The position numbers were made by a program, and so were the translations under genes. Shown piece after piece: positions 3,309-35,628 of a stretch of 64,000 bases of DNA (positions within the stretch are counted from its first letter, which is position 1; every line of letters starts with the position of its first letter). Under the pieces are notes generated by a model, which saw only the letters and a program-made list of their open reading frames with translations, made no database searches and was not told the DNA's origin. This stretch comes from Conexibacter woesei Iso977N (GTDB lineage Bacteria; Actinomycetota; Thermoleophilia; Solirubrobacterales; Solirubrobacteraceae): assembly GCF_000424625.1 (NCBI RefSeq), contig NZ_AUKG01000001.1, positions 682,001 through 746,000 on the forward strand. The letters run 5' to 3'.

Positions 3309-3351
3309 GACCTCAGGATCGCACTCGCGGCAGCGGGTCGTGATTCCAGCG

Positions 3352-6329: not shown

Positions 6330-6350
6330 GAATCTCTGAGCGGGGGATTG

Positions 6351-6366
6351 CGCGGCGCCCGCCGCG
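6351..6366 (+). terminator. GC-rich inverted repeat after the DUF1385 gene
   Basis: CGCGGCG-CC-CGCCGCG is a perfect inverted repeat 21 nt after the DUF1385 stop. It can fold as a 5-bp stem with a 6-nt loop. It has no T tract, so termination is plausible but unproven. Confidence 0.35.
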
Positions 6367-6437
6367 GGCAGGCATGATGTCGGCGCGCGGACGTCCCACC
6401 TGTTCGCGCACCGTCCGTCCTTCCGACCCAGAGACCG

Positions 6438-8770: not shown

Positions 8771-8833
8771 GCGCGCCCGGCCTGCAACGCCGCGCCCACG
8801 ATTTCCCGGGGCGGTGGGTACGTTGGCGCGTCG

Positions 8834-9919
8834 GTGACCCTGCGTCGTCCCCCTCTGCGCGCCTTCGGCGTGGCCGTCATGGCCGCGCTGGTCCTGGCTG
8901 CGCCCGCGACCGCCGACCTCGGCGGGCAGATCCAGTCCTCGAGGGGCAGGGACCGGTCGTTGCAGTCCCAGATCGGTCGGGATTCGCACAAGCTCGCGGA
9001 GTTCCAGGGGCAGATCGGCGACCTGCGCGAGCGGTTGTCCGCGTTGCAGCAGTCGCTGGCGATCGAGCAGAGCGAGTTGGTGTCCTTGCAGTCGCGCCTG
9101 CGCGGCGCGCGGGCCAAGTTGGTGAAGTTGAAGCTCGCCTTCAAGCGCGACCGTGCGGCGTTGGTGAAGCAGTTGGTCGCGCAGTACGAGACCGACCGCC
9201 CGGACCTCGTGAGCGTCATCCTCAGCTCGCACTCCTGGGGCGACCTGCTGGAGACCAGCGACAACATGAAGGCCGTCGCCGACCAGAACTCCTCGGTGAT
9301 CGCGCGCGTCAAGAGCGAGCGCACCGACGTCACCAAGCAGGCCAAGGACCTCGCGTCGCTGACCGCCCAGCAGCAGCGCGTGACCGCCGCGTCGTTGGTC
9401 CAGCGCGACGAGGTCGACGCGCTCAAGATGGACCTGATCGCCAGGGCCAGCGGCGTCGCCAACGCGCGCGCCAAGAAGACGTCGCAGCTGGCGACGCTGC
9501 GCGCCAACCGCAAGAGGCTGGAGAGCAAGCTGGCCGCGATCCAGGCGCAGGCCGCGAGCGTCAGCGGCGCCGGACCCGGCCTGCCCTCCGGCGGCGCGCC
9601 GGCCTTCAACGGCCACGGCGGCTCCTACGGCTTCTTCCAGGCGGCCGGGACCAACTACAGCGTCGGCAACGAGCCGACGATCGCCGCGCGCCTCGACGTC
9701 ATGGGCAGGGCGTTGCACCTGCACCTGATCGGCATCTCCGGCTACCGCTCGCCCCAGCACTCGGTGGAGGTCGGCGGCTTCGCCGACGACCCGCACACCA
9801 GGGGCGAGGCGTCCGACACGCCCGGCGTCGAAGGCGTCCCGGAGTCCACGCTGAACCACTACGGCCTGACCCGCCCCTTCCCGGGCGCGGCCGAGGCCGA
9901 CCACATCCAGCTCGCGTAG
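8834..9919 (+). CDS. Secreted coiled-coil protein with M15-like D,D-peptidase-type C-terminal domain
   Basis: A 361-residue exported protein. A signal peptide ends near residue 28 (PATAD). Residues about 30-240 are a long coiled coil rich in Gln, Leu, Lys and Arg, resembling the NlpC/EnvC type of cell-wall hydrolase activators. The C-terminal 110 residues contain ISGYRSPQHSVEVGG, DPHTRGEASDTPG and EADHIQLA, the His/Asp/His arrangement expected of M15 (hedgehog-like) zinc peptidases. It probably trims or binds peptidoglycan. GTG 8834 is preceded by TACGTT (8819-8824), consistent with a leaderless transcript. Confidence 0.75.
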   Translation: MTLRRPPLRAFGVAVMAALVLAAPATADLGGQIQSSRGRDRSLQSQIGRDSHKLAEFQGQIGDLRERLSALQQSLAIEQSELVSLQSRLRGARAKLVKLKLAFKRDRAALVKQLVAQYETDRPDLVSVILSSHSWGDLLETSDNMKAVADQNSSVIARVKSERTDVTKQAKDLASLTAQQQRVTAASLVQRDEVDALKMDLIARASGVANARAKKTSQLATLRANRKRLESKLAAIQAQAASVSGAGPGLPSGGAPAFNGHGGSYGFFQAAGTNYSVGNEPTIAARLDVMGRALHLHLIGISGYRSPQHSVEVGGFADDPHTRGEASDTPGVEGVPESTLNHYGLTRPFPGAAEADHIQLA

Positions 9920-16295: not shown

Positions 16296-18245
16296 TCACC
16301 CCGTGTCGGCCGGCAGCTGCCGGCCGGCCAGGCGGGGCTGGGGGAACGGGATCGCGGCAGCGCCGCGCTTCCACCAGACCGGCTGATGCGCGCGCCCCAG
16401 CACGGGGCGCGCGTGCTTCAGGTCCAGCGACGCGGGCGAGCGCTCCAGCGCCGCGGCGAACGCCGCGCGGGGGTCGCGCCCGAGGCGGGCCTGGACGATC
16501 GCCTGCGCGAGGCGCAGGCGGAAGTCGCCCGGGTCGCGGTCGACGGCCTGCTGCGCGGCCGTCAGAGCGGCGTTCGTGTCGCCCGCCTGCGTGGCGCACC
16601 ACGACGCGACCTCGTAGGGCTCGGGCCGGTCGACGAGCCCGGAGCGCGCGGCGGTCGCGTGGCGCTGTGCGGCGGCGCAGTCGCCCGCGGCGAACGCGTC
16701 GAGCGACCGGTCGACCGCGCGCTGCGAGCGCTGCACGGCGAACGGGACGACCGCGAGCGCGACCGTGGCGGCGACGACCGCCGCCCGCAGCGGCAGCGCG
16801 AGCGGCGCCGCCCGTGGCTCGCCGTCGTCCTCGGCGCGCGCCAGCGCCAGGCCGCCCGCGGCGAGCAGCGGCAGCGTCAGCGCGACCAGCTCCCAGTCGA
16901 AGTCGTAGGCCGCGTGGGCCAGCAGCGCCAGCGCGCCCGCCGCCAGGCCCGCCCAGGTCGCGTCGCGGCTCGCGGCCGCGCGGCACAGCAGCGCGACGAC
17001 GAGCGTCGCGAGCAGGACGGCGAGCAGCGCGAAGCCGACCAGCCCCAGCTCGCCGAGCGTCTCGGCGTAGAGCGAGTGCGCGTCGGCGGCCTCGAAGTGC
17101 GTGGTGCCGTCGCGGTCCCACAGCCGGCCGAAGCTCCCGGCGCCCGCGCCCTTCAGCGGCGCGGGCCGCGTGCCGTCGGCCAGCGCGACGTGCCACAGGT
17201 CCGCGCGGCCGTTGGTCCCGATCTCCTGGAAGCGCTGGTTGGGGGCCAGGCTCGACGAGACGGCGTTCCCGGTGTCCTGCAACGCGACGGCCGTCCCGAT
17301 CGCGACGCCGAGCACGACGAGGCCCGCGAGCGCCGCGCCGCGCGCGAGGCGCGGCGGGCCGCCGGGCGACCACGCCGCCAGGCGGTCGTCGAGGGCCAGC
17401 AGCGCGGCCCGGGACGCGGCGCCGAGCACCGCCGCGCCGAGGATCAGCAGCGCCGCGCGGTGGCCGCTGTGCAGCGCGGCGCCGGTCGGCGCCTGCACGT
17501 CGAGGCCGTGGGCGCCGTGGGCGGCGAGCAGCGCGAGGCCGGCCGCCGGGCCCGCGGCGGCCAGCGCGGTGAGCGTCCGGCGCGCGGGCCCGGCGGCGAC
17601 CAGGACCGCGAGGCCGACGAGCGCGGCCAGCGCCGCGCCGCGCGAGGCCGACAGGTAGACGACCGCGGCGGCGGGCGCGATGGCAGCGGCCGCGACGACG
17701 CGCAGCACGCGCGAGCGGTCGGTCGCCGAGATCGCCACGCACCAGACGGCGCCGAGCGCGGCGAGCATCCCGCTCGCGTTCCAGTAGGTGGTCGGGGCCG
17801 ACAGGCGCTCACGGTCGGCCGCCGGGATCCCGTGGACGTGGTCGGGCGCCAGCCACGCGCCGAGGCCGGCGACGGCCACGACGAGCGCGGCGGCCGCGAG
17901 CGCGAGCAGCAGCGTCCGCGCGCGCCCGTCGGTCCGGCCCAGCAGCGCGAACGCGGCCAGCGTCGCCAGGTAGGCGAGGTCGCGCGTGATGTCGAGCGTC
18001 CCGCGCCACGGCGCGTGCGACCAGCTCCCCGACAGCGCGACCCAGCCGATCAGCAGCGCCAGCGCGGCGAGCGCGACCGCCGCGCCGCGCGTCGGGCGCC
18101 GCGCCACGCCGGCGGCGGCCAGCAGCGCGCAGACGGCGAGCGCCACCAGCGCCGCGCCCGACGTCGCGCGCGGGAGGTAGCCCGCGCTGTGGAAGGCCAG
18201 CAGGCCGAGCGCGAGGCCCGGCAGCGCGGCGACCGCGGTCTTCAG
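16296..18245 (-). CDS. Wzy-type polymerase / O-antigen ligase family membrane protein with C-terminal repeat region
   Basis: About 649 residues with ten or more hydrophobic segments and the Wzy_C (O-antigen ligase) core: the long loop with NQRFQEIGTNGRADLW, GAGAGSFGRLW and DAHSLYAETLGELGLVG is the typical periplasmic loop with Arg and His. After the membrane part, about 130 soluble residues (AVDRSLDAFAAGDCAAAQRHA and later) look like TPR-type repeats. It should polymerise or ligate lipid-linked oligosaccharide at the outer face of the membrane. No ATG, GTG or TTG is suitably placed. I use CTG at 18243-18245, which overlaps the upstream stop as CTGA. The start is therefore uncertain. Confidence 0.8.
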   Translation of the reverse strand: MKTAVAALPGLALGLLAFHSAGYLPRATSGAALVALAVCALLAAAGVARRPTRGAAVALAALALLIGWVALSGSWSHAPWRGTLDITRDLAYLATLAAFALLGRTDGRARTLLLALAAAALVVAVAGLGAWLAPDHVHGIPAADRERLSAPTTYWNASGMLAALGAVWCVAISATDRSRVLRVVAAAAIAPAAAVVYLSASRGAALAALVGLAVLVAAGPARRTLTALAAAGPAAGLALLAAHGAHGLDVQAPTGAALHSGHRAALLILGAAVLGAASRAALLALDDRLAAWSPGGPPRLARGAALAGLVVLGVAIGTAVALQDTGNAVSSSLAPNQRFQEIGTNGRADLWHVALADGTRPAPLKGAGAGSFGRLWDRDGTTHFEAADAHSLYAETLGELGLVGFALLAVLLATLVVALLCRAAASRDATWAGLAAGALALLAHAAYDFDWELVALTLPLLAAGGLALARAEDDGEPRAAPLALPLRAAVVAATVALAVVPFAVQRSQRAVDRSLDAFAAGDCAAAQRHATAARSGLVDRPEPYEVASWCATQAGDTNAALTAAQQAVDRDPGDFRLRLAQAIVQARLGRDPRAAFAAALERSPASLDLKHARPVLGRAHQPVWWKRGAAAIPFPQPRLAGRQLPADTG

Positions 18246-19290: not shown

Positions 19291-20481
19291 ATGCTCGACC
19301 ACACGCCGGCCCACGCCGGCGGCCGGGACGGTGCGGCGATGACGTCGGCGCCCGCCGTCGCGATCACGCACGACTTCATGGAGATCTACGGGGGCGCCGA
19401 GCGCGTCACCCAGGAGCTGGCCTCCGCGTTCCCGGGCGCGCCGCTGACCGCCGTCCTCGGGCGCCGCTCGGTCGCCGCGCGCATGGGCGTCGCCGATCGC
19501 TTCACCAGCGTCCTGCCGCCGCGCGAGCTGCTGCTGCGCGGCTACCGCGTGCTGGCGCCCGCGCTGCCGGCCGTCGTCCACCACCACAGGCTCGACGACG
19601 CCGACGTCGTGCTGAGCTCGTCCTACGCGTTCGCGCACCTGTTCGAGACCCGCAACGACGCCCCGCAGGTCTGCTACTGCCACAGCCCGCTGCGCTTCGC
19701 GTGGTCGATGACCGAGCACTACGAGGACGAGAAGGCCGCCGGCTCGAAGCTCACGCGGACGGCGTTCCGGGCGATGGCCGCGCACAACCGCCGCGTCGAC
19801 TACAGGGGCGCGCAGCACGTCCACACCTACCTGACGCAGTCGCCCTACGTGGCCGGGCAGATCGAGGAGTTCTACGGCCGCCGCGCGCTGGTCGTGGGCG
19901 CGCCGGTCGACTGCTCGCACTTCACGCCGTCCGGCACCGCGCCCGAGGACTACTGGTTGATCTGCGGGCGCCTGGTCGAGCCCTACAAGCGCGTCACGCT
20001 GGCGCTGGAGGCGTTCCGCGACCTCCCCGGCGAGCGCCTGGTCATCGCCGGCGACGGGCCCGCGATGGCCGAGCTGCAGGCCAAGGCGCCGCCGAACGTG
20101 ACGTTCCTCGGCCACCTCGAGGACGACGCGGTCGTCAAGGCCATGCAGAACTGCAAGGCCACCATCTTCCCGAGCCGCGACGACTTCGGGCTGATCCCCG
20201 TCGAGGTCGCCGCGTGCGGCCGCCCGGTGCTGGCCTACGGCGACGGCGGCGCGCTGCACACGGTCGTCCCGGGGCTGACCGGCGAGCACTTCCACGAGCA
20301 GACGGCCGGCGCGCTGCTGGACGCGCTGCGCGCGTTCGACCCCGGCGCCTACGACCCGGCCGCGATCCGCGCCCACGCGCTGAAGTGGGACCGCGCGCCG
20401 TTCACGGCGCGCGTGCAGGCCGTGGTCGCCGCGGTCGCGGCGGGCACGGCGATCGACGAGGCGGCGGTGACGCTGTCGTGA
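19291..20481 (+). CDS. Glycosyltransferase family 4, first gene of the operon
   Basis: A 396-residue GT-B enzyme of the GT4 (WbaZ-like mannosyltransferase) group. The N-terminal THDFMEIYGGAERVTQEL contains the glycine-rich acceptor loop, CYCHSPLRFAWSM is typical of the subgroup, and the C-terminal domain has RLVEPYKRVTLALEAF and the E-x7-E type region DDFGLIPVEVAACGRPVLAYGDGG that binds the sugar nucleotide. I chose ATG 19291 because a CATAAT element ends 6 nt before it; ATG 19339 (MTSAPAVAITHD) is an alternative. Its stop overlaps the next GTG by 4 nt. Confidence 0.9.
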   Translation: MLDHTPAHAGGRDGAAMTSAPAVAITHDFMEIYGGAERVTQELASAFPGAPLTAVLGRRSVAARMGVADRFTSVLPPRELLLRGYRVLAPALPAVVHHHRLDDADVVLSSSYAFAHLFETRNDAPQVCYCHSPLRFAWSMTEHYEDEKAAGSKLTRTAFRAMAAHNRRVDYRGAQHVHTYLTQSPYVAGQIEEFYGRRALVVGAPVDCSHFTPSGTAPEDYWLICGRLVEPYKRVTLALEAFRDLPGERLVIAGDGPAMAELQAKAPPNVTFLGHLEDDAVVKAMQNCKATIFPSRDDFGLIPVEVAACGRPVLAYGDGGALHTVVPGLTGEHFHEQTAGALLDALRAFDPGAYDPAAIRAHALKWDRAPFTARVQAVVAAVAAGTAIDEAAVTLS

Positions 20482-21497
20482 GCGCGGCCGCCGTCAACGA
20501 GGCCCCGGCCAGCGGCCGCCCGCGCGTCGCGTTCCTGGCCTGGACCGACCGGACGCCGCGCGCCGACGAGATCGCCGCCAGCGTCGGCGGCGTCGCCCAG
20601 CGCTTCGACGGCTACGGCCTGCGCGGCCGCGCGACCGCGCCGCTGCGCTACGTCCTCAACGGCCTCGGGACGATCGCGTGGCTGGCCTGGCGGCGCCCGC
20701 GGGCCGTCGTCACCCAGAACCCGCCGGTCTTCGTCGGGCTGATCGCCTGGCTCTACGGGCTCGCGACGGGCGTGCCGGTGCTGCTCGACAGCCACCCGGC
20801 GTCGTTCGGCCGCAAGGACGGGCTCTGGAAGGTCATGCTGCCCGTCCACCGCTTCCTCGCCCGCCGCGCCCGGCTGGTCCTGGTGACGGCGCCCGAGCTG
20901 GCCGACGAGGTCCGCGCCTGGGGCGGCCGTGCCGCCGAGGTCCACGAGGCGCCGGTCGCCGAGCTGACCGCGACGCCCGCGCCGGAGCTGGCCGCAGGCG
21001 AGCGCCTACGCGTCTTCTACGTCGGCGTCTTCGCGCCCGACGAGCCGGCCGGCGCGGTGATCGAGGCGGCCCGGCTGGTGCCGGACGCCGACGTCCGCAT
21101 CACCGGCGACCTGCGCCGCGCGCCCGCCGGGCTGGTCGAGGGCGCCCCGGAGAACGTGACGTTCGTCGGGTTCCTGGCGCCGGAGGACTACCGGCGCGAG
21201 CTGCGGGAGGCCCACGTCGTGATGACGCTGACGACCGATCCGACGTCGGTCATGCGCTCCGGGTACGAGGCCGTTTACGCGGGCCGCCCGCTGGTGACCA
21301 GCGAATGGCCCGTGCTGCGCTCGACCTTCCCCTACGCTGTACACGCCGAGGGACGGCCGGAGGCTCTGGCCGCCGCCCTCACCGAAGCGACCCGGCGTCA
21401 CGCCGAGCTGCGGGCGAGCACCGCCCCGGCGCTCACGCACCAGCAGGCGACCTGGGCGTCCCAGCACGCCGCGATCGAGGAGGCCATCACCTCATGA
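20478..21497 (+). CDS. Glycosyltransferase (GT4-like)
   Basis: A 339-residue GT-B-type protein. The N-terminal half has VAFLAWTDRTPRADEIAASVGG and a hydrophobic region VVTQNPPVFVGLIAWLYGLATGVPVLLDSHPASFG, as in membrane-associated glycosyltransferases that act on lipid-linked acceptors. The C-terminal half carries VFYVGVFAPDEP, ENVTFVGFLAPEDY and VMRSGYEAVYAGRPLVTSEW, where the acidic residue of GYEAVYAG would bind the donor. Start GTG 20478 lies in a GTGA overlap. The donor sugar is unknown. Confidence 0.8.
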   Translation: MSAAAVNEAPASGRPRVAFLAWTDRTPRADEIAASVGGVAQRFDGYGLRGRATAPLRYVLNGLGTIAWLAWRRPRAVVTQNPPVFVGLIAWLYGLATGVPVLLDSHPASFGRKDGLWKVMLPVHRFLARRARLVLVTAPELADEVRAWGGRAAEVHEAPVAELTATPAPELAAGERLRVFYVGVFAPDEPAGAVIEAARLVPDADVRITGDLRRAPAGLVEGAPENVTFVGFLAPEDYRRELREAHVVMTLTTDPTSVMRSGYEAVYAGRPLVTSEWPVLRSTFPYAVHAEGRPEALAAALTEATRRHAELRASTAPALTHQQATWASQHAAIEEAITS

Positions 21498-22651
21498 CCG
21501 TTCCCCGCATACGTGTCCTCAAAGCCCTGCGCCGCCGTGCGTGGGTGCTCGTCGTCGCCGTCGCGCTGTGCGCGGCGGCCGCCGTCGTGCTCAGCGGCGC
21601 GCGCAGCTCGAGCTACACCAGCTCGTCGCTGCTGCTCGTCAACTCCGGCGCGGACGCGAAGGGCCCCGGCGACGCGTCGGAGGCCATCAACCTCGCCAGC
21701 ACCTACGCGACGCTGATCCCGCAGGACCCGGGCGTCACCAGCTACGTCGGCAGGCGGCTCGGCATGAGCAGCAGCGACGTCGAGGACGCGATCAGCGCGT
21801 CGCACCTCACCGGCACCGGGCTGATCACGCTCACCTTCAAGGACGACGACGGCGACAAGGCCGTCCAGGGCGCCGCGCTGACCGTCCGCGCGGTGACCGG
21901 CAACGCGCCGACGTCGGCCTCGATCGGGCCCGACTCGATGAAGGTCGTCCGCGCGCCCAGCCACGACCAGGGCTTCTCGAAGAAGCAGACGATCTCGCCG
22001 TCGGCGAGCCTGGCGCTGGCGATCGTCTTCGGCCTCTTCCTCGGGATCATCATCCTGATCGCCTGGGAGCGCGCCGACCCGCGGATCGACGAGCCCGGCG
22101 ACGTCGAGCTCGCCGCCCACCTGCCCGCCAGCCGCCTGAAGGACCTCTCGGGCTCGGCCCGCGCGGCGCTCGTCCAGCGCCTCGCCGGCCAGGCGGAGCC
22201 GGATCCCGCCGATCGCGCCGCGCCGCTGGCGCTGCTGCCGTCCGGTCCCCAGCAGGGCGCCGAGCTGCTCGACGCGGGCGACTCGCTCTGGAACGCGACC
22301 GCCGGCGCGCGCGGCGGGCTGGCCGACACCACGCCGACGCCGACGATCGTGCTCGGCGGCGACGGCCCGCAGGAGCTGGAGACGCTGCAGGCGGCCGAGA
22401 CCGGCGGCGCGCGGATCGTCGTCGCCCAGGAGGGCATGAAGGTCTCGCGCCTCGTCGCCGCGATCCACCACTACGAGCGCCTCGGCCTGACGCCGCAGTG
22501 GGTGCTGATGGTCAAGAAGGCCGGCCGCGCCCAGCGCCGCGCGGCCGCGGCCGAGCACGTCAGCTGGCTGCCGCGCGACACCAGGACCGCCGACAGCGGG
22601 AGCGAGCCCACGGCCGAGCAGGCGCACCCGGAGGACGTCGCCTCGCGATGA
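21494..22651 (+). CDS. Wzz-like polysaccharide co-polymerase with degenerate kinase-like C-terminal domain
   Basis: A 385-residue protein controlling polymer length with Wzy. It has two membrane helices (about 17-35 and 171-191) enclosing an extracytoplasmic domain with TYATLIPQDPGVTSYVGRRLG, as in Wzz/CapA proteins. The C-terminal 190 residues are cytoplasmic. Part of it, RIVVAQEGMKVSRLVAAIHHYERLGLTP, resembles the end of a bacterial tyrosine kinase (Wzc/CapB) domain, but no Walker A or Tyr cluster is present, so it is probably catalytically dead. ATG 21494 overlaps the previous stop by 4 nt. Confidence 0.8.
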   Translation: MTVPRIRVLKALRRRAWVLVVAVALCAAAAVVLSGARSSSYTSSSLLLVNSGADAKGPGDASEAINLASTYATLIPQDPGVTSYVGRRLGMSSSDVEDAISASHLTGTGLITLTFKDDDGDKAVQGAALTVRAVTGNAPTSASIGPDSMKVVRAPSHDQGFSKKQTISPSASLALAIVFGLFLGIIILIAWERADPRIDEPGDVELAAHLPASRLKDLSGSARAALVQRLAGQAEPDPADRAAPLALLPSGPQQGAELLDAGDSLWNATAGARGGLADTTPTPTIVLGGDGPQELETLQAAETGGARIVVAQEGMKVSRLVAAIHHYERLGLTPQWVLMVKKAGRAQRRAAAAEHVSWLPRDTRTADSGSEPTAEQAHPEDVASR

Positions 22652-24147
22652 GCGCGGCCGCGCCGACCATCGGCACGGCGCAGGTCATGCCGGCGGAGGG
22701 CGCCGGTCGTCGCGGGCTGCCCGCGCGCGACGGCGTCGTCCACGTCTGGCGCCATCCCGGCGTCCAGATGACCGCCGTCCTGGTCGCGGGCGCGGTGCTG
22801 CTCGGCGCCGCCGCGACGCAGGGCGTGCTGCCGGCGATCGCGGTCCTGCTCGGAGTGGCCGGGAGCCTCGTGGTCCTGGAGCGGCCGTGGATCGGCGGGA
22901 TCGCGCTGGCCGCGGCCGTGCCGGTCGTGGCCGGCCTGAACCGCGGCATCCCGGTCCCGGGCCTGCGGCTCAGCGAGATCCTGATCGGCTGGCTGTGCGC
23001 GATCGTGCTGCTGAGCGCCGACCGCCGCGTCGTGCCGCGCTGGCGCGCGTTCGACTGGGTCGCGTTCCTGTACGCCTTGGTCACGCTCGGCTTCGGCCTC
23101 TGGGACCTGCACCAGCGCGGCGGGGGCGTCAACTCGACGCAGCTCGGCACGCTGCTCGGGCCGCTGCAGTTCTTCCTGCTCTACCGCGCGATCGTCAGCT
23201 CGCTGTCGACGCCCGCGCTCGTGCGCCGCGGCCTGTGGTGGCTGCTGGGCGGCGGCGTCTTCGCGGCGTTCATCGCGCTGCTGCAGTACGCGGGGGTCGG
23301 GCCGGTCATCTCGACGCTCAACCGGATCTCGGGCGGCGACAACTTCGAGGACGCGGCCGCGGGCGGCGTCTCGCGCGTGACCGGGCCGTTCTCGCACGCC
23401 CAGCCGGCCTCGGCGTACTTCTTCCTGATCGTCTGCATCGCGGCGGCCGTGTGCCTGAGCGAGCGCAACGACGTCCGCCGGCGCTCGGCGACCTGGATCG
23501 TCCTGGCGATCGGCGCGGCCGCGCTGATGGCGACGTTCACGATGGGGCCGATCCTGTCGGTGCTCGTCGCGATCGCGCTGGTCGCCTTCTGGCGTCGCAA
23601 GCTGCGCGTGGTGTCGCTGTGGTTCATCGTCGCGGTGCTCGGCGCGACGCTGCTGTTCAGCGGGCCGATCACCGGGCGCCTGGACCAGCAGTTCCAGCGC
23701 GACCCGTCGGCGTCCGGGAGCGTGCTCGTCCCGCAGACCGTGAGCTACCGCTACGGGATCTGGACCGAGCAGTACTTCCCAGCACTTCGCGGGCGGTTGG
23801 TGACCGGCTACGGGCCGGACATCCCGCCGGAGATCACCTGGCGCTTCACCGAGTCGTTGTACATCACCTTGCTGCTGCGCGGCGGGATCCCGTTGTTGTT
23901 GTTGTACTTGGGATTCGTGATCGCGCTCGGGGGTGAGGCCGTGCGGACGATGCGGGAGACCGAAGGGGTGCCGCGCGCCGCGGCCCAGGGGCTGCTGGCG
24001 GCGCTGATCCTGCTGATGCCGATGCAGGTCATCCAGGCCTACTTCATCCAGGCCGGCCCGGGCCACCTCGTCTGGGCCCTCGGTGCGCTGGTCATCGCCA
24101 GCCGCAACGCCCACAACCGCGCGGCGGACGTCGCCGCGGACGCGTGA
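22648..24147 (+). CDS. Wzy-type O-antigen polymerase/ligase family protein
   Basis: A 499-residue membrane protein with about 11-12 hydrophobic segments. The Wzy_C-like loop lies between segments in the second half (GPFSHAQPASAYFFLI, then GRLDQQFQRDPSASGSVLVPQTVSYRYGIW and GRLVTGYGPDIPPE), with Arg and His residues expected at the active site. It should join repeat units on undecaprenyl pyrophosphate outside the membrane. It shares the family with the protein at 16296-18245 but has no TPR tail. It overlaps both neighbours by 4 nt. Confidence 0.85.
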   Translation: MSAAAPTIGTAQVMPAEGAGRRGLPARDGVVHVWRHPGVQMTAVLVAGAVLLGAAATQGVLPAIAVLLGVAGSLVVLERPWIGGIALAAAVPVVAGLNRGIPVPGLRLSEILIGWLCAIVLLSADRRVVPRWRAFDWVAFLYALVTLGFGLWDLHQRGGGVNSTQLGTLLGPLQFFLLYRAIVSSLSTPALVRRGLWWLLGGGVFAAFIALLQYAGVGPVISTLNRISGGDNFEDAAAGGVSRVTGPFSHAQPASAYFFLIVCIAAAVCLSERNDVRRRSATWIVLAIGAAALMATFTMGPILSVLVAIALVAFWRRKLRVVSLWFIVAVLGATLLFSGPITGRLDQQFQRDPSASGSVLVPQTVSYRYGIWTEQYFPALRGRLVTGYGPDIPPEITWRFTESLYITLLLRGGIPLLLLYLGFVIALGGEAVRTMRETEGVPRAAAQGLLAALILLMPMQVIQAYFIQAGPGHLVWALGALVIASRNAHNRAADVAADA

Positions 24148-25058
24148 CGGTCGTCCGTGGCCGCCGCCTGTGGGCGCTCGTGGCGGTGACGGCCGTCGCC
24201 GTCGCGGCGATCGCCGCCGGCGCCGCGCTGCTGCTGGGCGGCGGCGACGACGGCGGTGCGCACGCCGCGAGCAGGGGGCCGGCGCTCGCGTGGGCGCCGC
24301 CGCGCCTGCACGCGCCGCAGACGATCCACGTCACGGCGGCGCGGGCCAAGCTGAAGCTCGATCCCCGGCGCGACTACCGCGTCGTGCTCCCGCGCACGCC
24401 GGTCCGGGTCGCGGGCGGCCTGACGATCGCCGGCGGCCGGAACGTCGTCGTGCGCGGCGGGCAGGTCGTGGTCCCGTGGCAGGGCGCCAGGCCCGCCAGC
24501 GGCTCGACGCGGCGCGGGTTGTTCCTCACGGGGCAGACCGGGACCGTCCACGTCGAGGGCCTCCGGCTGAGCGGCGACCTCGGCGACGGCATCGACCTCG
24601 ACGAGCGCCTCGGCGCGACCGTGCAGCTGGAGAACATCCGCGTCGATCGCGTGACTGCTCGGGACACCAAGAAGTTCAGCGACACCCACCCGGACGTCGT
24701 GCAGTCCTGGGCCGGGCCGAAGGTCCTGCGCATCGACCGGCTCAGCGCCGCGACCGACTACCAGGGCTTCTTCCTGCTGCCCGACCAGTTCGCCAAGGGG
24801 ACGACCGCGCGCGTCGACCTGCGCCACGTCGACCTCGTCGGCTCCAGGACCTCGGCCTACCTGCTGTGGCGCGACCGCGCTGCCGCCGTCACGCTCCGCG
24901 ACGTCCGCCTGACCTCGCCGGGCGCGCGCCCCGTCTACCAGACGATGTGGCCGACGCCCGCCTGGTGGCCCGGCGCGAGGGTCATCCGCCACGCCCCCCG
25001 CACGCTGTTCGCGAGCCCGCGCGCGGGCATCTCCTACACCTCGCCCGGATACCGATGA
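24144..25058 (+). CDS. Membrane-anchored or secreted beta-helix-like protein inside the polysaccharide operon (SPGY family, member 2)
   Basis: A 304-residue protein with an N-terminal hydrophobic helix (LWALVAVTAVAVAAIAAGAALLLGG, about 9-33) that can be a signal anchor. The rest is the family core: LAWAPPRL, a run of beta strands, GTVHVEGLRLSG, DGIDLDERLGATVQLENIR, THPDVVQSWAG, TDYQGFFLL, and the last residues YTSPGYR. The core resembles a right-handed parallel beta-helix as in polysaccharide lyases or hydrolases, yet no known catalytic set is recognised. The strict H-x-D-[VL]-[VI]-Q motif is the best active-site candidate. Its place between Wzy and the pyruvyl transferase, with 4-nt overlaps on both sides, ties it to polymer export or modification. 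Confidence 0.8.
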   Translation: MTVVRGRRLWALVAVTAVAVAAIAAGAALLLGGGDDGGAHAASRGPALAWAPPRLHAPQTIHVTAARAKLKLDPRRDYRVVLPRTPVRVAGGLTIAGGRNVVVRGGQVVVPWQGARPASGSTRRGLFLTGQTGTVHVEGLRLSGDLGDGIDLDERLGATVQLENIRVDRVTARDTKKFSDTHPDVVQSWAGPKVLRIDRLSAATDYQGFFLLPDQFAKGTTARVDLRHVDLVGSRTSAYLLWRDRAAAVTLRDVRLTSPGARPVYQTMWPTPAWWPGARVIRHAPRTLFASPRAGISYTSPGYR

Positions 25059-26080
25059 CCTCCGCCGCACCCGATCCGCTCGCGGTCCAGCCGCTGGACG
25101 AGGCCTACCGCAGCCTCGTCGCGCCCGGGACGCCGATCGCGCTGCTCGACTTCCCGCTCTACCCCAACGTCGGCGACTCGGCGATCTGGCTCGGCGCGGC
25201 CGCGCTCGCGCAGCGCAACGGCAACACCATCAAGTACACCGCCAACCACGCGTCCTACTCGGCGGCGGGGCTGCGGCGCTGCCTTCCGGAGGACGGCGTG
25301 ATCGTCGTCCAGGGCGGCGGCAACTTCGGCGACCGCTGGCCCGCGCACCATCAGCTGCGCGAGCGCGTCGTCTCCGACTTCCCGGACCGGCCCGTCGTCT
25401 TCTTGCCGATCAGCGTCGAGTTCCTCAGCGCCGAGGCGGCGGAGCGCTCGTTCGCGCTGCTCGCCGCGCATCCGCGCCTGCACGTCATGGTCCGCGACCG
25501 GGCGTCGTGCGCGACGGTCGAGCAGGCGCTCCCGGGGCGCACGCGGCTGACCCCGGACGCCGCGACCGCGCTCGGCCACCTCGACGCCGGCGCGGCCGCG
25601 CCGGCCCACGACGTCGTCGCGCTCGTCCGCACCGACTCCGAGGCGCAGGCGCGCGTCCCGGCGCCGCCCGCCGGCCTCGACGTGCGCGTGATCGACTGGC
25701 TCAACGTCCCGGGCCAGGACGGCTACGACCCGGCCTTCCGGCGCAGTGAGTGGGCCCTGCAGCGGCTCGGCTCGGTCCTCGTCCGCGTCCCGGCCATCGC
25801 ACCGCCCGGCCACCAGTCGCTGGTCCTCGCGGCCTACATGCGGATGGCGCGCCGGCGGCTGGCCTGGGGCGTCCGTGTGCTCGCCTCCGGGCGCGTCGTC
25901 GCGACCGACCGCCTCCACGCGCACATCATCTGCGAGCTGCTGGGCCGGCGCCACGTCGTCGCCGACAGCGGCCACGGCAAGATCAGCGGCTACGTCGCGA
26001 CGCACGGGCAGTCGGCGACGAGCACGCTCGTCGCGCCCGCCGAGCTCTACGACGCGGTCGCCCGCGAGCTGGCCCGATGA
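25055..26080 (+). CDS. Polysaccharide pyruvyl transferase family protein
   Basis: A 341-residue enzyme that would add pyruvate ketal groups to sugars from phosphoenolpyruvate. Family features: NVGDSAIWLGA near the N-terminus, VVQGGGNFGDRWP, VVFLPISVEF, and the C-terminal block VVATDRLHAHIICELLGRRHVVADSGHGKISGY, with the His/Arg residues that bind phosphate. Pyruvylation adds negative charge to extracellular polymers and can anchor S-layer-type proteins. Start ATG 25055 overlaps the beta-helix gene by 4 nt. Confidence 0.9.
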   Translation: MTSAAPDPLAVQPLDEAYRSLVAPGTPIALLDFPLYPNVGDSAIWLGAAALAQRNGNTIKYTANHASYSAAGLRRCLPEDGVIVVQGGGNFGDRWPAHHQLRERVVSDFPDRPVVFLPISVEFLSAEAAERSFALLAAHPRLHVMVRDRASCATVEQALPGRTRLTPDAATALGHLDAGAAAPAHDVVALVRTDSEAQARVPAPPAGLDVRVIDWLNVPGQDGYDPAFRRSEWALQRLGSVLVRVPAIAPPGHQSLVLAAYMRMARRRLAWGVRVLASGRVVATDRLHAHIICELLGRRHVVADSGHGKISGYVATHGQSATSTLVAPAELYDAVARELAR

Positions 26081-27624
26081 GCGACGTCTACGTCCCACCC
26101 GATCCCAACGAGGACCCGCTCACCGACGAGGCGGCACAGCGACCGGTCGAGGCGCCCGAGCCGGCCGAGCGCCAGATGGGCCGCGCCGAGGTCCGGACGC
26201 GCGCCGTGCGCGGCGCGGTCAGCCTCGGCATCCGCAACCTCGCGGTGCGCGCGATCAACCTGATCGGGACGATCGTCCTCGCGCGCCTGCTCGACCCGCA
26301 CGACTTCGGCCTGCTGGCGTTCGCGTTCGCCGTCAAGTCGGTCAGCGACATGCTCGCGGCCGGCGGCCTGGCGGCGGGCTTGATCCGGCGCGAGGCGATG
26401 CCGACGCGGCGCGAGCTGCAGGCGACGCTCGGCTTCCAGCTGTCGACGACGTCGTCGCTGGTGCTGCTGATCGCGCTCTGCGGGGCGATCTTCGGCGGCG
26501 CGGCCTGGGTCGCGACCGTGATGGCCGCCTCGCTGCCGATCTTCGCGCTGCGCGTGCCGACGATCGTGATGCTCGAGCGCAAGCTCGACTGGTCGCTGCC
26601 CGCGCGCGCCGAGGTCGCCGAGACCGTCGTCTACAACGCGATCGCGATCGGCCTGGTCGTCGCGGGGGCGGGCGTCTGGGGCGTCGCCGCGGCCGCGACG
26701 GTGCAGGGACTGGTCGGCTCGTTCCTGCTGGTCTCCAACGGCGGCGTCGGCTGGCTGCGGCCGATCCGCGACCCGTCGATCACGCGCCCGCTGCTGCGCT
26801 TCGGGATCGGCTTCCAGGCCGTCCCCCTCGTCGGCGCCGCGCGCGAGCAGGGCACCAACATGGTGATCGCCGCGGTCGGCGGCGTCGCGATGCTCGGCAT
26901 CTGGTCGGCGGCCTACCGCGTGCTGCAGACGATGCTGCTGCTCCTGCAGAGCCTCTGGCGCGTTTCCTATCCGGCGATGGCGCGGGCGATGGAGGCGGGG
27001 GCGGACCCGCGGCCGATGCTCGAGCGGATCCTCGTCGTGACCGCCGTGCTGCTCGGGCTGCCCGCCGTCTGGGTCGCGGGCAGCGCGCCGGACCTCGTCC
27101 ACGCCGTGTTCGGCGCGCGCTGGGACGACGCGATCGACGTGCTGCCGTGGGGCGCGGCCGCGTTCATGTTCCAGGGGCCGATCTCGACGATGGCCTCGGG
27201 CTTCCTGCAGGCGCGTGGCGACGTGGGGCGGATCGTGGTCGTGGTGCTGCTGCAGTCGGTGATCTGGATTGCCTGGACCGCCGCGCTGATCCCGTCGATG
27301 GGCGTCGAGGGCGCGGGCATCGGGATGCTGATCGGCTCGCTGTTCTACACGGTCGGCAACGTCTGGCTCGTCGACCGCCACGTCAAGATCTCGGCGATCC
27401 GCCCGATGGCCGGGCCGCTGCTGACCGCGCTGATCGGCGCGGTCGCGGCGCGCGCGGTCGCCGACGCGGTCAGCCCGCCGCTCCTCGGCCTCGTCGCGTC
27501 GTGCGCGGCCGGGACCGTCGTGTACGCCGTGATCCTCGGTGTCGTCCGGCGCGGCGACGTGCGCACCGTCGCCAGGACGCTCAACCTCGCGCGCGGCCGG
27601 CCCGAGCCGGCGGGCACGGTCTAG
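26077..27624 (+). CDS. Wzx-type flippase (polysaccharide transporter family)
   Basis: A 515-residue membrane protein with about 14 hydrophobic segments after a 45-residue acidic, Pro-rich cytoplasmic N-terminus. The opening GAVSLGIRNLAVRAINLIGTIVLARLLDPHDFGLLAF is the hallmark of the MOP-superfamily polysaccharide flippases (RfbX/Wzx/WzxC). It should flip lipid-linked repeat units outward. It is the last gene of the operon; its stop and that of the convergent GT2 gene share the palindrome CTAG at 27621-27624. Confidence 0.92.
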   Translation: MSDVYVPPDPNEDPLTDEAAQRPVEAPEPAERQMGRAEVRTRAVRGAVSLGIRNLAVRAINLIGTIVLARLLDPHDFGLLAFAFAVKSVSDMLAAGGLAAGLIRREAMPTRRELQATLGFQLSTTSSLVLLIALCGAIFGGAAWVATVMAASLPIFALRVPTIVMLERKLDWSLPARAEVAETVVYNAIAIGLVVAGAGVWGVAAAATVQGLVGSFLLVSNGGVGWLRPIRDPSITRPLLRFGIGFQAVPLVGAAREQGTNMVIAAVGGVAMLGIWSAAYRVLQTMLLLLQSLWRVSYPAMARAMEAGADPRPMLERILVVTAVLLGLPAVWVAGSAPDLVHAVFGARWDDAIDVLPWGAAAFMFQGPISTMASGFLQARGDVGRIVVVVLLQSVIWIAWTAALIPSMGVEGAGIGMLIGSLFYTVGNVWLVDRHVKISAIRPMAGPLLTALIGAVAARAVADAVSPPLLGLVASCAAGTVVYAVILGVVRRGDVRTVARTLNLARGRPEPAGTV

Positions 27625-28451
27625 CGCGGCGACCGTCGCGCGGCGCGTTCGCCCGCCCAGCGCCCGGCGATCTCCGTCGCGCGCAGGTAGTTCAGCCGCT
27701 GGACCAGCGGCGGCCGGCGGCTGCCCGGCGGGAGCTCGGACCACCAGGCGCGCAGCGCAGCGCGGGTGCCGAACGCGTGCTGGCCCGACAGCTGGGCGAG
27801 CGCGAACGACTCCTTGCGCGTGCGGCGGAACAGCGCGCGCACGCCGGCACGGCGCCGGTGCGCGGCGCTGACCCACAGGTCGGGGTCGGCGACGAACGTC
27901 CAGCCCGCCTCCAGCTCGCGCCAGAACCAGTCGCGGTCCTCGCAGGCGACGAGGCGCTCGTCGATCGGCTGCTCGCGCCAGCGGCTGGCCCGCCACGCCG
28001 AGGCGTGGTTGGTGTAGCCCCACAGCGGCGTCTGCCGCAGCTCGGCGCCCGCGACGACCAGCGGCTCGGTGAGTGCGTGGCCGTCCGGGGTGGTGCGGAT
28101 GCCCCAGCAGCCGGCGACGCGCGGGTCCTCGAAGTGGGCCACCGCGCGGGCGATCCAGTCCTCGCGCTCCAGGAAGCAGTGGGCGGACACCGCGACGTGC
28201 ACCGGGGCGGCCGCGGCCGCGGCGCCGGTGTTCAGCGCGCCGCCGAACGTGAAGTCCTCGGGGGCGATCCGGATCACGCGGTCGACCAGCGGCGTCGCGA
28301 TCTCCAGCGTCCGGTCGGTCGAGCCCGAGTCCACCAGGATGATCTCGACCGGCACGGTCTGCGCGCGGATCAGCGCCAGGCAGCGGCCGATCGCCTGCTC
28401 CTCGTCCTTGGACCGGACGATGACGCTCGCTGCTGGCGCGCCGTCGCTCAT
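27621..28451 (-). CDS. Glycosyltransferase family 2, rhamnosyltransferase-like
   Basis: A 276-residue GT-A enzyme. The N-terminal SVIVRSKDEEQAIGRCLALI and IILVDSGSTDRTLEIA form the nucleotide site. The usual metal-binding segment reads VAVSAHCFLEREDWI, the SAH type seen in the rhamnosyltransferase branch. The acidic catalytic pair appears as CEDRDWFWRELEAG. The C-terminal 60 residues are Arg-rich. The start is ATG 28451 with TAGACT (28461-28466, minus strand) ending 9 nt before it. It lies between the operon end and a beta-helix gene. Confidence 0.88.
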   Translation of the reverse strand: MSDGAPAASVIVRSKDEEQAIGRCLALIRAQTVPVEIILVDSGSTDRTLEIATPLVDRVIRIAPEDFTFGGALNTGAAAAAAPVHVAVSAHCFLEREDWIARAVAHFEDPRVAGCWGIRTTPDGHALTEPLVVAGAELRQTPLWGYTNHASAWRASRWREQPIDERLVACEDRDWFWRELEAGWTFVADPDLWVSAAHRRRAGVRALFRRTRKESFALAQLSGQHAFGTRAALRAWWSELPPGSRRPPLVQRLNYLRATEIAGRWAGERAARRSPR

Positions 28452-28480: not shown

Positions 28481-29905
28481 TCAGCTCGCGTAGCCGGGCG
28501 AGCGGTAGGCCGTGCCGACCGTGGCGCTCGTCGCGTAGGACCCGCCGGACGGCGTGCCCTGGATGACGCCCGGGCCCCAGGCGGCCGGGGTCGGCCACTG
28601 CGAGCTCCACATGCCCTTCCTGTGGTCGGGCACGAGGTAGAGGTTGCTCACGCTCATCGGGAACGTCGTGGACTGCCACAGCAGGACGCCCGCGAACGGG
28701 AGGCCGTTCCTGTAGGAGGCGCTGATGTCGATGTTGCGCAGGTCGAACTGGGACGGCACGACCGTGCCGTACTGCATCGGCGCGAAGAAGAAGCCCTGGT
28801 AGTCGCTGCTGCCGGAGAGGTGGTCGACGCGCAGGACGTTGGGGCCGGCCCAGGTCTGGATCAGGTCCGGGTGGTTGTCGGTGAAGCCGGCCTCGTCGCG
28901 GGCGTGGACGCCGTCGATCCGGACGTCCTGGATCTGGACGGTCGCGCCGAGGCGCTCGTCGAGGTCGATGCCCTCGCTGAGGTCGGCGCCGTGGATCCAC
29001 AGGCCCTCGACGTGGACGGTGCCCGTCTGGTTCTGGAGGTACAGGCCGCGGCGCGAGTTGACCGGCGGCGGGTCGCCCTGCCACGGGATGTCGATCTCGC
29101 CGCCGATCAGCACGACGTTGTGCCCGCCGTTGATGACCACGCCGTAGCCGCCGGTCAGCGCGCCCGCGGGCATGCTGACGATGTAGTCCTTGCCGGCGTC
29201 GAGCCTCAGCGAGCGGTTCGTCGTGGTGACGTTGATCGTGATCGGGTTGACGAGCCTCGGCGGCGCCCAGGTGAGCCTGCTGCGCGTCGCGGCGACCGCG
29301 TCGCTGGTTCCGGCGCCCGCGGCGCCCGCGACCGTCGTCCCGGAGGCGACGGAGACCGGCGGGACGGGCGCGGTCGTCGTCGTGGTGCTCGTCGACGTCG
29401 TCGTGGTCGTCCTGGCCGGCGCCGGCGCCGGCGGCGCGGCGGCGGTGGTCGTGGTCGTCGCCGCGGGCCTGGTCGCCGCGGCGGGGGCGGCCGCGGTCGT
29501 CGTCGTCGCGGTGGTCGACGTGGTCGTGGTCGTCGTCGCGGGCAGCGTGACGGTCGTCGTGCTCGTGACCGGCCTGCCGCTCTGCGGGGTCAGCGTGCCG
29601 ACGACCTTGACCTGCCTGCAGGCCCTGCACTTGGTGGTCTTGAGGCTGAGCGTGCGCGTCGCGCCGCGCTTGAGCGACGTGCTGCCCCTGGCGATCGTGC
29701 TCGACCCGGACGCCTTGACCGCGACCGCGACCCTGCCGGCGGCCGAGGCCTTCACGCTCACGGTGATCGCGCTCTTGCCCGCCTTGGCGGTCACCGACAG
29801 CTTCGGCTTGGCGGCGGCGTTCGCGCCGGCCGCCGGCACCAGCGCGAGGGCGAGGGCGAGCGGGACGGCGGTGGCGAGGTGGGGACGGCGGCGACGCACC
29901 CTCAT
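28481..29905 (-). CDS. Secreted beta-helix-like protein with Thr-rich linker (SPGY family, member 3)
   Basis: A 474-residue exported protein. The signal peptide is about 1-31 (AVPLALALALVPAAGANAAA). Residues about 32-120 form an Ig-like beta domain rich in Lys and Ser with a CRAC motif. A Thr/Ala/Pro linker of about 90 residues follows. The C-terminal domain is the shared core: LTWAPPRLVNP, HNVVLIGG, GTVHVEGLWIHG, EGIDLDERLGATVQ, NHPDLIQTWAG, SDYQGFFFAP, and the ending YRSPGYAS. It is closest to the 24144-25058 protein (the DLDERLGATVQ block is identical). An inverted repeat lies directly before its start codon. Confidence 0.82.
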   Translation of the reverse strand: MRVRRRRPHLATAVPLALALALVPAAGANAAAKPKLSVTAKAGKSAITVSVKASAAGRVAVAVKASGSSTIARGSTSLKRGATRTLSLKTTKCRACRQVKVVGTLTPQSGRPVTSTTTVTLPATTTTTTSTTATTTTAAAPAAATRPAATTTTTAAAPPAPAPARTTTTTSTSTTTTTAPVPPVSVASGTTVAGAAGAGTSDAVAATRSRLTWAPPRLVNPITINVTTTNRSLRLDAGKDYIVSMPAGALTGGYGVVINGGHNVVLIGGEIDIPWQGDPPPVNSRRGLYLQNQTGTVHVEGLWIHGADLSEGIDLDERLGATVQIQDVRIDGVHARDEAGFTDNHPDLIQTWAGPNVLRVDHLSGSSDYQGFFFAPMQYGTVVPSQFDLRNIDISASYRNGLPFAGVLLWQSTTFPMSVSNLYLVPDHRKGMWSSQWPTPAAWGPGVIQGTPSGGSYATSATVGTAYRSPGYAS

Positions 29906-30014: not shown

Positions 30015-30986
30015 ATGGAGCCTCCGGTGCCGACCGTGTCCGTGGTCATGCCCACGTACAACCGGCGGGCGCAGCTGCGCACCGTGCTGGCGCCGCTGTT
30101 GGCCGATCCGGCGGCGACCGAGATCGTCGTGGTCGTCGACGGCAGCGACGACGGCTCGCTCCAGGAGCTGCAGGCGCTGGCCGCCACCGACCCGCGGCTG
30201 ATCCCCGTCTGGCAGGAGAACGCAGGCGAGGGCGCGGCGCGCCAGGCGGGCGTCGAGCGCGCGAGCGGCGACGTCGTCCTGCTGCTCGACGACGACGTCG
30301 AGGCCGAGCCGGGCCTGGTCGCCGGCCACGCCCGCCACCACGCGCAGCGCGACGACCTCGCGGTCCTCGGCTACATGCCGCCGGTCCCGGCGCAGCAGGG
30401 CGATCCGGACGCGTTCAGCGTCCAGCTCTACACCGAGGCCTACGAGGGCCGCTGCGCGAGCTACGAGGAGGATCCGGGCCTGATCCTGCGCCACCTCTGG
30501 GCCGGCAACGTCTCGCTGCGGCGCGCGACGGTCCTGGAGGTCGGGATCGGGAGCGACGCCTACGACGAGCGCTACCACCCCGACCGCGAGTTCGGCCTGC
30601 GGCTGCTGAGCCACGGCCTGACCGGCGTCTTCGACCGCGACCTGCGCGCCCGCCACCACTACCACCGCCCGCTGGCGTCGTTCGTCAAGGACGCGCGCAG
30701 CCAGGGCGCGGGCTGGACGCTCGTCCACCAGCTCCACGGCGACGAGGCCGGCGACCTGCCCGAGGACCGCTTCGAGACCGGCCTGCCCGGCCCGGTCGCC
30801 GCGCTGGTCCGGATCTGCCGCCGCCCGCGCGCCGCGGCGCTCGTTGCGGCCGCGCTGACCGCCGGCCTGCGCGCCGCGGCTGCGGCCGGCAACACCGCCG
30901 CGGCGGTGCGCTTCGCGCGCCTGCTGCGCCGCGTCGAGCAGCAGCGCGGCGCGATCGAGCTGCGCCGCCGCCACGGCGCCGCTTGA
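30015..30986 (+). CDS. Glycosyltransferase family 2
   Basis: A 323-residue GT-A enzyme: SVVMPTYNRRAQLRTVL, VVVVDGSDDGS, and the metal-binding DDD in VVLLLDDDVEAEPG. The acceptor region has LWAGNVSLRR and HPDREFGLRLLSHG with the catalytic acidic residue, followed by a C-terminal Ala/Arg-rich helix. It is a clear paralogue of 32604-33551, sharing LW(A/G)GNVSLRRA and the spacing after it. ATG 30015 follows TAAGGT (30000-30005) by 9 nt. It stands alone between divergent and downstream genes. Confidence 0.9.
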   Translation: MEPPVPTVSVVMPTYNRRAQLRTVLAPLLADPAATEIVVVVDGSDDGSLQELQALAATDPRLIPVWQENAGEGAARQAGVERASGDVVLLLDDDVEAEPGLVAGHARHHAQRDDLAVLGYMPPVPAQQGDPDAFSVQLYTEAYEGRCASYEEDPGLILRHLWAGNVSLRRATVLEVGIGSDAYDERYHPDREFGLRLLSHGLTGVFDRDLRARHHYHRPLASFVKDARSQGAGWTLVHQLHGDEAGDLPEDRFETGLPGPVAALVRICRRPRAAALVAAALTAGLRAAAAAGNTAAAVRFARLLRRVEQQRGAIELRRRHGAA

Positions 30987-33551: not shown

Positions 33552-33565
33552 GGTTGCCGATCACC

Positions 33566-34357
33566 ATGGATCTCGCCATCCCCAGAACGACCGGCGGCCG
33601 GCTGGGGCTGCGCCACCCGGAGCTCGTCCTCCACCTCGTCAAGCGCGAGCTGTCCTCCGCGCACCGGTTCACCGTGCTCGGCTGGGCGTGGCCGCTCGCG
33701 CGCCAGCTGGCGCAGCTGGCGGTGCTCGTCTTCGTCTTCTCCTCGGTGCTCGACCTGGGCATACCCGACTTCCCGGTGTACGTGTTCAGCGGCCTGGTGG
33801 CCTGGAACGCCTTCAGCACGGGGCTTTCGGCGGCCTCTACCTCGCTCATCGACCAACGGCACCTCGTCTTCCAGCCGCGGTTGCCGGCGGCCGTTTTGCC
33901 GGTGGTGGCGGTGGTGGTCCCGTTCGTCGACGTCCTGATGGCCGCGCCGGTCCTGCTCCTGATGCTGATCGTCAGCGGCGAGCTGCACGCCACCGCGTTC
34001 CTGTTCCCGCTCGTCCTCGGGGTCCAGCTGGTCCTGATGATCGGCCTCGCGTGGCTGTTGGCGCCGGCCTCGGTGTACGTGCGCGACGTCCCGAACCTGG
34101 TGGCGCTGGGGTTGATGGTCCTCTTCTACCTCACCCCGGTGTTCTACAGCCTGCACAGGATCCCGGAGCAGTACGAGTGGCTGCTGCAGTTGAACCCGAT
34201 GACCACGTTGCTCGATCTTGACCGGGCGCTGCTGCTCGGCCTGCCGTATCCGAGCGTCGCGCACATCGTGGGCACGGTCGCGCTGGCGGCGGTGCTCGCG
34301 GTGGCCGGCTGGTACGGGTTCGAGCGCATGCGCCCCGGGCTGGTGGACAACCTGTGA
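33566..34357 (+). CDS. wzm: ABC-2 type polysaccharide export permease (Wzm/TagG-like)
   Basis: A 263-residue membrane protein with six hydrophobic segments. LVLHLVKRELSSAHRFTVLGWAWPLARQL is the typical amphipathic entry, and LAPASVYVRDVPNLVALGLMVLFYLTPVFYSL the Wzm/TagG signature in the second half. With the next gene it forms an exporter that moves completed polymer or teichoic-acid-like chains across the membrane. I chose ATG 33566; an earlier ATG (33527) would lie inside the divergent glycosyltransferase gene. It overlaps the ATPase start by 4 nt (GTGA). Confidence 0.9.
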   Translation: MDLAIPRTTGGRLGLRHPELVLHLVKRELSSAHRFTVLGWAWPLARQLAQLAVLVFVFSSVLDLGIPDFPVYVFSGLVAWNAFSTGLSAASTSLIDQRHLVFQPRLPAAVLPVVAVVVPFVDVLMAAPVLLLMLIVSGELHATAFLFPLVLGVQLVLMIGLAWLLAPASVYVRDVPNLVALGLMVLFYLTPVFYSLHRIPEQYEWLLQLNPMTTLLDLDRALLLGLPYPSVAHIVGTVALAAVLAVAGWYGFERMRPGLVDNL

Positions 34358-35628
34358 GCGAGCACCACGCGCTGACCTTCGAGGGCGTCTGGAAGTCCTA
34401 CCCGCGCTGGACCGGCGCGGGCGCGCGGACGAGCCGGACGATCCTGACGCGGCGGCTGCCCGAGGCACTGCGCAGGCGCGAGCAGCGCTGGGCGCTGCAG
34501 GACGTCACGATGCGCGTCGGGCAGGGGCGGATGATGGGGATCGTCGGCGCCAACGGCGCGGGCAAGTCCACCATGTTGCGCCTCGCCTCCGGCCTCGGGC
34601 GCGCGACGCGCGGCGAGATCGTCGTCCCGGAGGGGACGGCGTCGGTGCTGTCGCTGGGCGACACGCTCGACCTCGAGCTGACCGGCAGCGAGAACGCCTA
34701 CACCGCGGCGCTGATCGCCGGGATGAGCTCCGCGCAGGCGCGCCGTGTGCTCGGGTCGGTGATCGAGTTCGCCGAGCTGGAGGAGTTCGCCGACCAGCCG
34801 ATGCGCACCTACTCGGAGGGCATGAAGCTGCGGCTGGCGTTCGGCGTCGTCGCCCAGCTGCAGCCGCCGGCGCTGATCCTCGACGAGGTGATCGCGGTCG
34901 GCGACGCGCGCTTCCAGGCCAAGTGCATGGCCCGGATCCAGGAGCTGCGCCAGGGCGGCGCGACCGTCGTGTTCGCCTCGCACAACCTCGACGAGGTCGA
35001 GGAGTCCTGCGACGAGGCGATCTGGCTGCAGAAGGGCAAGGTCCGCGCGGCGGGCGCCGCCGACGAGGTCGTCGAGGCCTACCGCGACGGCATGCGGCTC
35101 GACACGCTGGCGGTCACGCCGGCGGGCGACGAGGACGACGACGCGCTGCTCAGGCTCGGCGAGAACCGCTTCGGCAGCCAGGAGCTGACGATCGACGAGG
35201 TGCAGCTGACCGGCGCCGACGGGCGGCCGACCGCCCTGCTGCACGACGGCGGCGCGCTCAACGTCGAGCTGACGATCCGCTCGCACCGCGGCCCGACGCC
35301 GGCGGTCGTGACCGTCGGCGTCACGCGCCTGGAGGACCAGGTGATGTGCTTCGAGACGTCGTCGGAGGAGCTGGGCCCGGACCTCGTCGTCGACGAGGAC
35401 GGCGTCACGCTGCGCGTCGCGTTCGACCCGGTCGACCTCACCAGCGGCGACTACGCGGTCGACGTCGGGGTCTACGAGCCGGGCTGGGAGTACGGCTACG
35501 ACTACCACTGGAACGTCCACCGCTTCGAGGTCGAGTCCGACCGCGGCGTCAGGGGCGTCTACGTCGCGCCGCGGCGCTGGGCCCCGGCGCGCGCGGCCGG
35601 GCGCGGCGACGCCTCAGCCGCGAGCTGA
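34354..35628 (+). CDS. wzt: ABC transporter ATPase with Wzt-type C-terminal domain
   Basis: A 424-residue protein. The ATPase domain has Walker A GANGAGKS (65-72), signature YSEGMK (153-158) where others have LSGGQ, and Walker B LILDE with D177/E178, then the His switch in FASHNLDE. After residue 240 a beta-sandwich domain of about 170 residues (ELTIDEVQLTGADG, and the HWNVHRFEVES segment) corresponds to the Wzt C-terminal domain that recognises the modified end of the exported chain. The partner is the permease just upstream. Its end overlaps the antisense end of the next gene by 15 nt. Confidence 0.92.
   Translation: MSEHHALTFEGVWKSYPRWTGAGARTSRTILTRRLPEALRRREQRWALQDVTMRVGQGRMMGIVGANGAGKSTMLRLASGLGRATRGEIVVPEGTASVLSLGDTLDLELTGSENAYTAALIAGMSSAQARRVLGSVIEFAELEEFADQPMRTYSEGMKLRLAFGVVAQLQPPALILDEVIAVGDARFQAKCMARIQELRQGGATVVFASHNLDEVEESCDEAIWLQKGKVRAAGAADEVVEAYRDGMRLDTLAVTPAGDEDDDALLRLGENRFGSQELTIDEVQLTGADGRPTALLHDGGALNVELTIRSHRGPTPAVVTVGVTRLEDQVMCFETSSEELGPDLVVDEDGVTLRVAFDPVDLTSGDYAVDVGVYEPGWEYGYDYHWNVHRFEVESDRGVRGVYVAPRRWAPARAAGRGDASAAS

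Follow-up and report, generated by a model that had tools for sequence, protein, structure and literature searches.

What does the short gene locked into a polysaccharide operon of Conexibacter woesei Iso977N encode, and what might its product do to the polymer made there? In the 64,000-nucleotide stretch of DNA analysed here (the window), this gene (24144–25058, plus strand; the operon copy) shares exactly 4 nt with the wzy-like gene ahead of it (GTGA, 24144–24147) and exactly 4 nt with the pyruvyl transferase gene behind it (ATGA, 25055–25058). An earlier note, made from the sequence alone, had described the gene as held in place by these overlaps; both are real, and both are also kept in the sister species. 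The operon copy is one of three paralogues with a common core of ~255 residues and about 34–47% identity between cores, and a search of the whole genome (5.7 Mb, 96.6% complete) found these three copies and no others. The 6438 copy (6438–7913, plus strand) consists of a signal peptide, a CBM60-like domain (about 6690–6920; E = 2e-5, 25.4 bits, below the 28.2-bit cut-off), a Gly/Pro/Thr linker and the core (7092–7910). The Thr-linker copy (28481–29905) has a signal peptide, an Ig-like-looking stretch, a Thr/Pro/Ala linker and the core (28484–29275); it lies on the minus strand, which the earlier note had left out. In the operon copy an N-terminal membrane anchor (residues ~13–31) is followed directly by the core (24285–25055). 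As the predicted hydrophobic helix at residues 13–31 is strong (mean hydropathy 2.5) and little else precedes the core, this protein is probably membrane-anchored. The description of all three proteins as secreted thus stands for the 6438 and Thr-linker copies, which have predicted signal peptides, and probably falls for the operon copy.

The three open reading frames and all of the motifs previously listed for them are present, and the order WAPP, GGxN, GTVHVEGL, HxD[VL][VI]Q, YQG and SPGY is common to the three cores. Pairwise BLASTP aligned the 6438 and operon copies over 285 columns (E = 4e-28, 34% identity), and a core profile found members in five Cellulomonadaceae genomes at E values of about 1e-103 to 1e-126, a similarity beyond chance. 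The core had no family match in Pfam, NCBIfam or the PDB sequences, whether as a single sequence or as a profile, which bears out the suspicion that no named family carries this signature. Profile matches in the PDB to the kinase ITK, an antibody light chain, flagellin and PTP PDZ domains appear to be chance hits and were set aside. PHROGs gave nothing convincing (one weak partial match, 20.8 bits), and searches with 7 and then 17 members returned no relevant match among the pectate and alginate lyase families of Pfam (E up to 1). In an alignment of 37 host and phage cores (numbered from the core at 24264–25055), L8, P13, D37, G65, G66, E98, G99, H142, D144, Q147 and Y258 are invariant. The HxDxxQ motif is therefore as strict as had been proposed, its H, D and Q being unchanged throughout, with the qualification that one phage core (contig L062) aligns these three residues through gaps only. 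We recognised no known catalytic residue set of a lyase or hydrolase in the core.

AlphaFold models of the operon copy's core (pLDDT 84.2, pTM 0.88; 15 sequences) and of the most divergent copy (7080–7910; pLDDT 91.7, pTM 0.92; 25 sequences) both predict a right-handed parallel beta-helix, the fold anticipated in the earlier note. VIA-align superposed the models on pectate lyases, phage tailspikes and the capsule-pathway protein VexL with Z scores of 15–17 over about 200–234 residues, and nearly all of the structural matches are proteins that act on polysaccharides. Since Foldseek matches to single PDB entries were weak (best E value 0.018), we assigned the core to no particular enzyme family. 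On these models the fold class is clear and no particular family is indicated; the core is a genuine unnamed family within a known fold class. Judging from the order of strands in the model and the alternation of hydrophobic residues, H96-Q121-R156-D185 and E98-Q123-D158-R187 would stack into two polar ladders along a single outer face, with Q147, Q167 and W202 pointing outward on the neighbouring sheet.

The operon copy is surrounded by genes of a Wzx/Wzy pathway. A Wzz-like chain length determinant (21545–22651, start approximate, plus strand; E = 8.9e-5, 23.2 bits, just under the 25.5-bit cut-off) is followed by the Wzy-like polymerase (Wzy_C; 22648–24147, plus strand), the operon copy, the polysaccharide pyruvyl transferase (25055–26080, plus strand) and a Wzx-type flippase (Polysacc_synt_3; 26077–27624, plus strand). 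The region also encodes four glycosyltransferases: GT4 (19291–20481, plus strand), GT4-like (20478–21497, plus strand), GT2 (27621–28451, minus strand) and GT2 (30015–30986, plus strand). The second and fourth of these are 46–49% and 44–51% identical, respectively, to genes beside the Cellulomonadaceae copies of the family. A probably secreted esterase-family protein (PF00756; 31109–32602) is encoded within the polysaccharide region. Since a second export system (an ABC-2 permease and an ATPase with a Wzt_C domain) and a second Wzy_C protein are also present (33554–35628 and 16296–18146), the region may direct the synthesis of several polymers. Identity to the sister species is about 79–84% for the genes on either side of the pyruvyl transferase but only 36% for the transferase itself (counterpart on contig L036, 10783–11820); this decoration gene has probably been replaced. 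Beside the 6438 copy lie genes for a GH46 chitosanase-like protein and an M15-like peptidase (7937–9919); the sister species lacks this pair at the locus, where its gene order is also altered.

Anchoring by SLH domains, which are surface-protein modules linked to a pyruvylated polymer, was considered after an amidase with SLH domains proved to be encoded near a core-bearing gene in a Cellulomonas genome (contig L042, 11614–13848). The pyruvyl transferase gene next to the operon copy is a further point of likeness, although the core is a predicted beta-helix and not an SLH domain. SLH domains (PF00395) were absent from the window's genome and were found in four control genomes, and because of this absence we dropped the idea of SLH-like anchoring to a pyruvylated wall polymer.

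The family is rare. Within the genus, all three copies recur in the sister species and the remaining five genomes lack the family; among 396 genomes sampled across the phylum, the window's own was the only one to match. When two short peptide patterns were used as the query against 84,980 species genomes, relatives appeared only in Cellulomonas and Actinotalea; within the Cellulomonadaceae, 5 of 150 genomes carry the family, with 2–6 copies each. As the 16S sequence of one such carrier is 82% identical to that of the window organism, the two belong to distant lineages. A match was absent from 72,556 plasmids, and a plasmid origin was dropped as an explanation. The core and a homologue of the window's wzy occur in exactly the same genomes, both in the genus (2 of 7) and in the Cellulomonadaceae (5 of 150; Fisher p = 1.7e-9, a value that ignores relatedness between genomes). 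The Cellulomonadaceae copies sit amid homologues of the window's cluster, with identities of 31–32% for wzy, 27–29% for wzx and about 33–51% for the GT4 and GT2 genes. Two Cellulomonas genomes share with the window the order Wzz, Wzy, anchored copy; two other Cellulomonadaceae carriers have the anchored copy next to Wzx, and the fifth carrier is split over broken contigs. Although infrequent, the family thus goes with a single Wzy pathway, one that is found again in actinobacteria only distantly related to each other.

This association bears on a reading in which the beta-helix would have no role with glycans and would serve only for stiff spacing or for stacking within a protein surface layer, its gene having landed in the operon by chance as the cluster grew. 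Purely structural beta-helices exist, adenovirus LH3 and autotransporter passengers were among the matches, and the Ig-like and Thr-rich partner regions would suit such a layer. Against it stand the strict co-occurrence of the core with one wzy in two separate lineages and the overlap of the core gene with wzy itself, and we regard it as improbable.

Every carrier genome encodes one copy that is a predicted membrane anchor and the core alone, and its remaining copies have signal peptides and varied partners (CBM60-like, Ig-like or CE2_N-like domains and Pro/Thr-rich linkers), where the partner-domain matches mostly fall under the Pfam cut-offs or were read by eye. Because the same core recurs with unrelated partner domains, it is the functional unit, as the earlier note had concluded from the differing N-termini.

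One of the closest comparisons is WceF of Pantoea stewartii (PDB 6tgf), a beta-helix enzyme encoded in the stewartan operon that hydrolyses, slowly, the operon's own polymer, and whose loss lengthens stewartan chains (PMC7949094). WceF and the operon copy share a right-handed beta-helix, a place in a Wzy-dependent exopolysaccharide operon and a relationship to phage proteins, in the case of WceF to tailspikes. However, WceF forms a trimer and has a twin-arginine signal as well as tailspike-like N-terminal and neck domains, whereas the operon copy is a short single core behind a predicted membrane anchor and lacks such domains; the window's system is moreover actinobacterial and includes two secreted paralogues. 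When all PDB sequences were searched with core profiles, 6tgf was not among the matches (E up to 10, and in one search E up to 1). VexL of Achromobacter denitrificans (PDB 6fi2), which acts in the Vi capsule pathway, is a monomeric beta-helix of similar extent that aligned with the core model at Z 17.0 over 225 residues with 15% identity. In contrast to the proteins studied here, VexL is a periplasmic protein of an ABC-transporter capsule pathway, and 6fi2 was likewise missing from the matches of the core profiles to PDB sequences at E up to 10. Pectate lyases and their relatives (PL1, PL3, PL6 and PL9) have the same fold (Z up to 17.5) but differ in having only about 7–15% identity, no Pfam match and no recognised catalytic set in common with the core. 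By this analogy the best reading is that the core may act as WceF or VexL does, but as a separate sequence family.

We favour, at a probability of roughly 48%, a polysaccharide-processing beta-helix acting on the polymer that its own cluster makes; it would occur in anchored and secreted forms and be shared with phages, versions having been exchanged between host and phage. Under this proposal the small core would act on the extracellular polysaccharide of the adjacent Wzx/Wzy pathway. The anchored copy would sit on the outer face of the membrane next to the polymerase, where it would hold and trim, or otherwise process, the emerging chain; the secreted copies, with their sugar-binding-like or Ig-like partners, would do the same job farther out in the matrix; and phage particles would bear the same core as a means of recognising or penetrating a polymer of that kind. 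The target would presumably be the polymer made by the core's own cluster, which the core would cut and not merely bind.

The core could instead be a non-catalytic, lectin-like beta-helix by which proteins and phages attach to the polymer. The membrane copy would then tether polymer to the cell, and the larger copies would cross-link or decorate the matrix. Binding is favoured by the reuse of one module with different partners, as the core occurs bare or with CBM60-like, FN3-like, Ig-like, CE2_N-like or coiled-coil partners, and by the two to six paralogues per carrier genome; up to six copies with differing partners in one genome count against an enzyme-only reading and look as much like a binder. 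WceF, too, remains attached to stewartan and forms aggregates with it (PMC7949094). Chemistry is favoured by the invariance of H, D, Q and E98: a binder of varied polymers would be expected to have a variable site, yet these residues are unchanged from host to phage at 25–40% identity. The same residues could be structural, and we hold a purely binding role to be a tentative but real possibility.

Cores of the processing family proposed here are also encoded by phages. IMG/VR contigs L014, L035, L049/L050, L052–L055, L058–L063 and others carry the core, which in these proteins is fused through Pro-rich linkers to coiled-coil-like, FN3-like or Ig-like regions. In these contigs of uncultured phages its neighbours include capsid and collagen-like genes, together with genes that PHROGs identifies as portal, terminase large subunit and head maturation protease. 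The only isolated phages with a match are Microcystis phages; in Mae-JY30 the core follows the tail module (30% identity, E = 9e-14). The Thr-linker protein and two other phage cores gave no match in isolated phages. Their position among structural genes indicates that the phage proteins are probably virion proteins. In this they resemble phage tailspike depolymerases and other virion beta-helices (for example Pam1, Fri1 gp49 and HK620), with which they share the fold class, a place among virion genes and a linker with coiled-coil or FN3-like domains. They differ in the small size of the core (about 255 residues), in its lack of a convincing PHROGs or Pfam match and in its additional occurrence in bacterial polysaccharide clusters, the window's copies lying in a host cluster.

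In a tree of the cores, the operon and Thr-linker copies form a supported group with their partners from the sister species (96/95), and the 6438 copy groups with two phage cores from contig L060 (89/65). With the caution that the constrained groups were partly picked after inspection of the tree, and that its base branches are weak (28/0) and its phage branches long, a single clade of all hosts was rejected (p = 0.015), as was one of the six copies from the window's genus (p = 0.007); a clade of all membrane-anchored copies was neither favoured nor rejected (p = 0.12). We accordingly discarded a clean history with hosts as a single clade. The tree suggests more than one exchange between hosts and phages, and since its base is unresolved and the phage branches are long we claim no direction of transfer. 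In a more specific history, actinobacteria would have recruited a glycan-recognition module of phage virions, on one or perhaps several occasions, to a single polysaccharide operon and would now display it on their own polymer, so that one module would both build or shield the coat and let phages attack it; we consider this unlikely. The movement of glycan-processing modules between phage and host clusters was raised as an idea for WceF, in a Gram-negative bacterium (PMC7949094).

The mixing of hosts with phages in the tree, the occurrence of one core in both hosts and phage structural regions, and the position of the 6438 copy next to the L060 cores would also fit receptor masking, in which host copies akin to phage receptor-binding modules would cover the polymer and so block adsorption of phages that bear the same core. 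No phage host is known to share the polymer, however, and the support at the base of the tree is weak, which makes masking very unlikely in our estimation. The family, now defined by its sequence, its predicted fold, its invariant residues and its genomic setting, offers a direct way to test how glycan-processing modules pass between phages and the clusters with which hosts make capsule or matrix. A core among phage structural genes would also hint at which phages attack which polymer. Contig L060 encodes two core-bearing proteins in tandem (1145–5203 and 5128–6846), one of which, at 1,353 residues, carries its core mid-protein with uncharacterised regions on either side.
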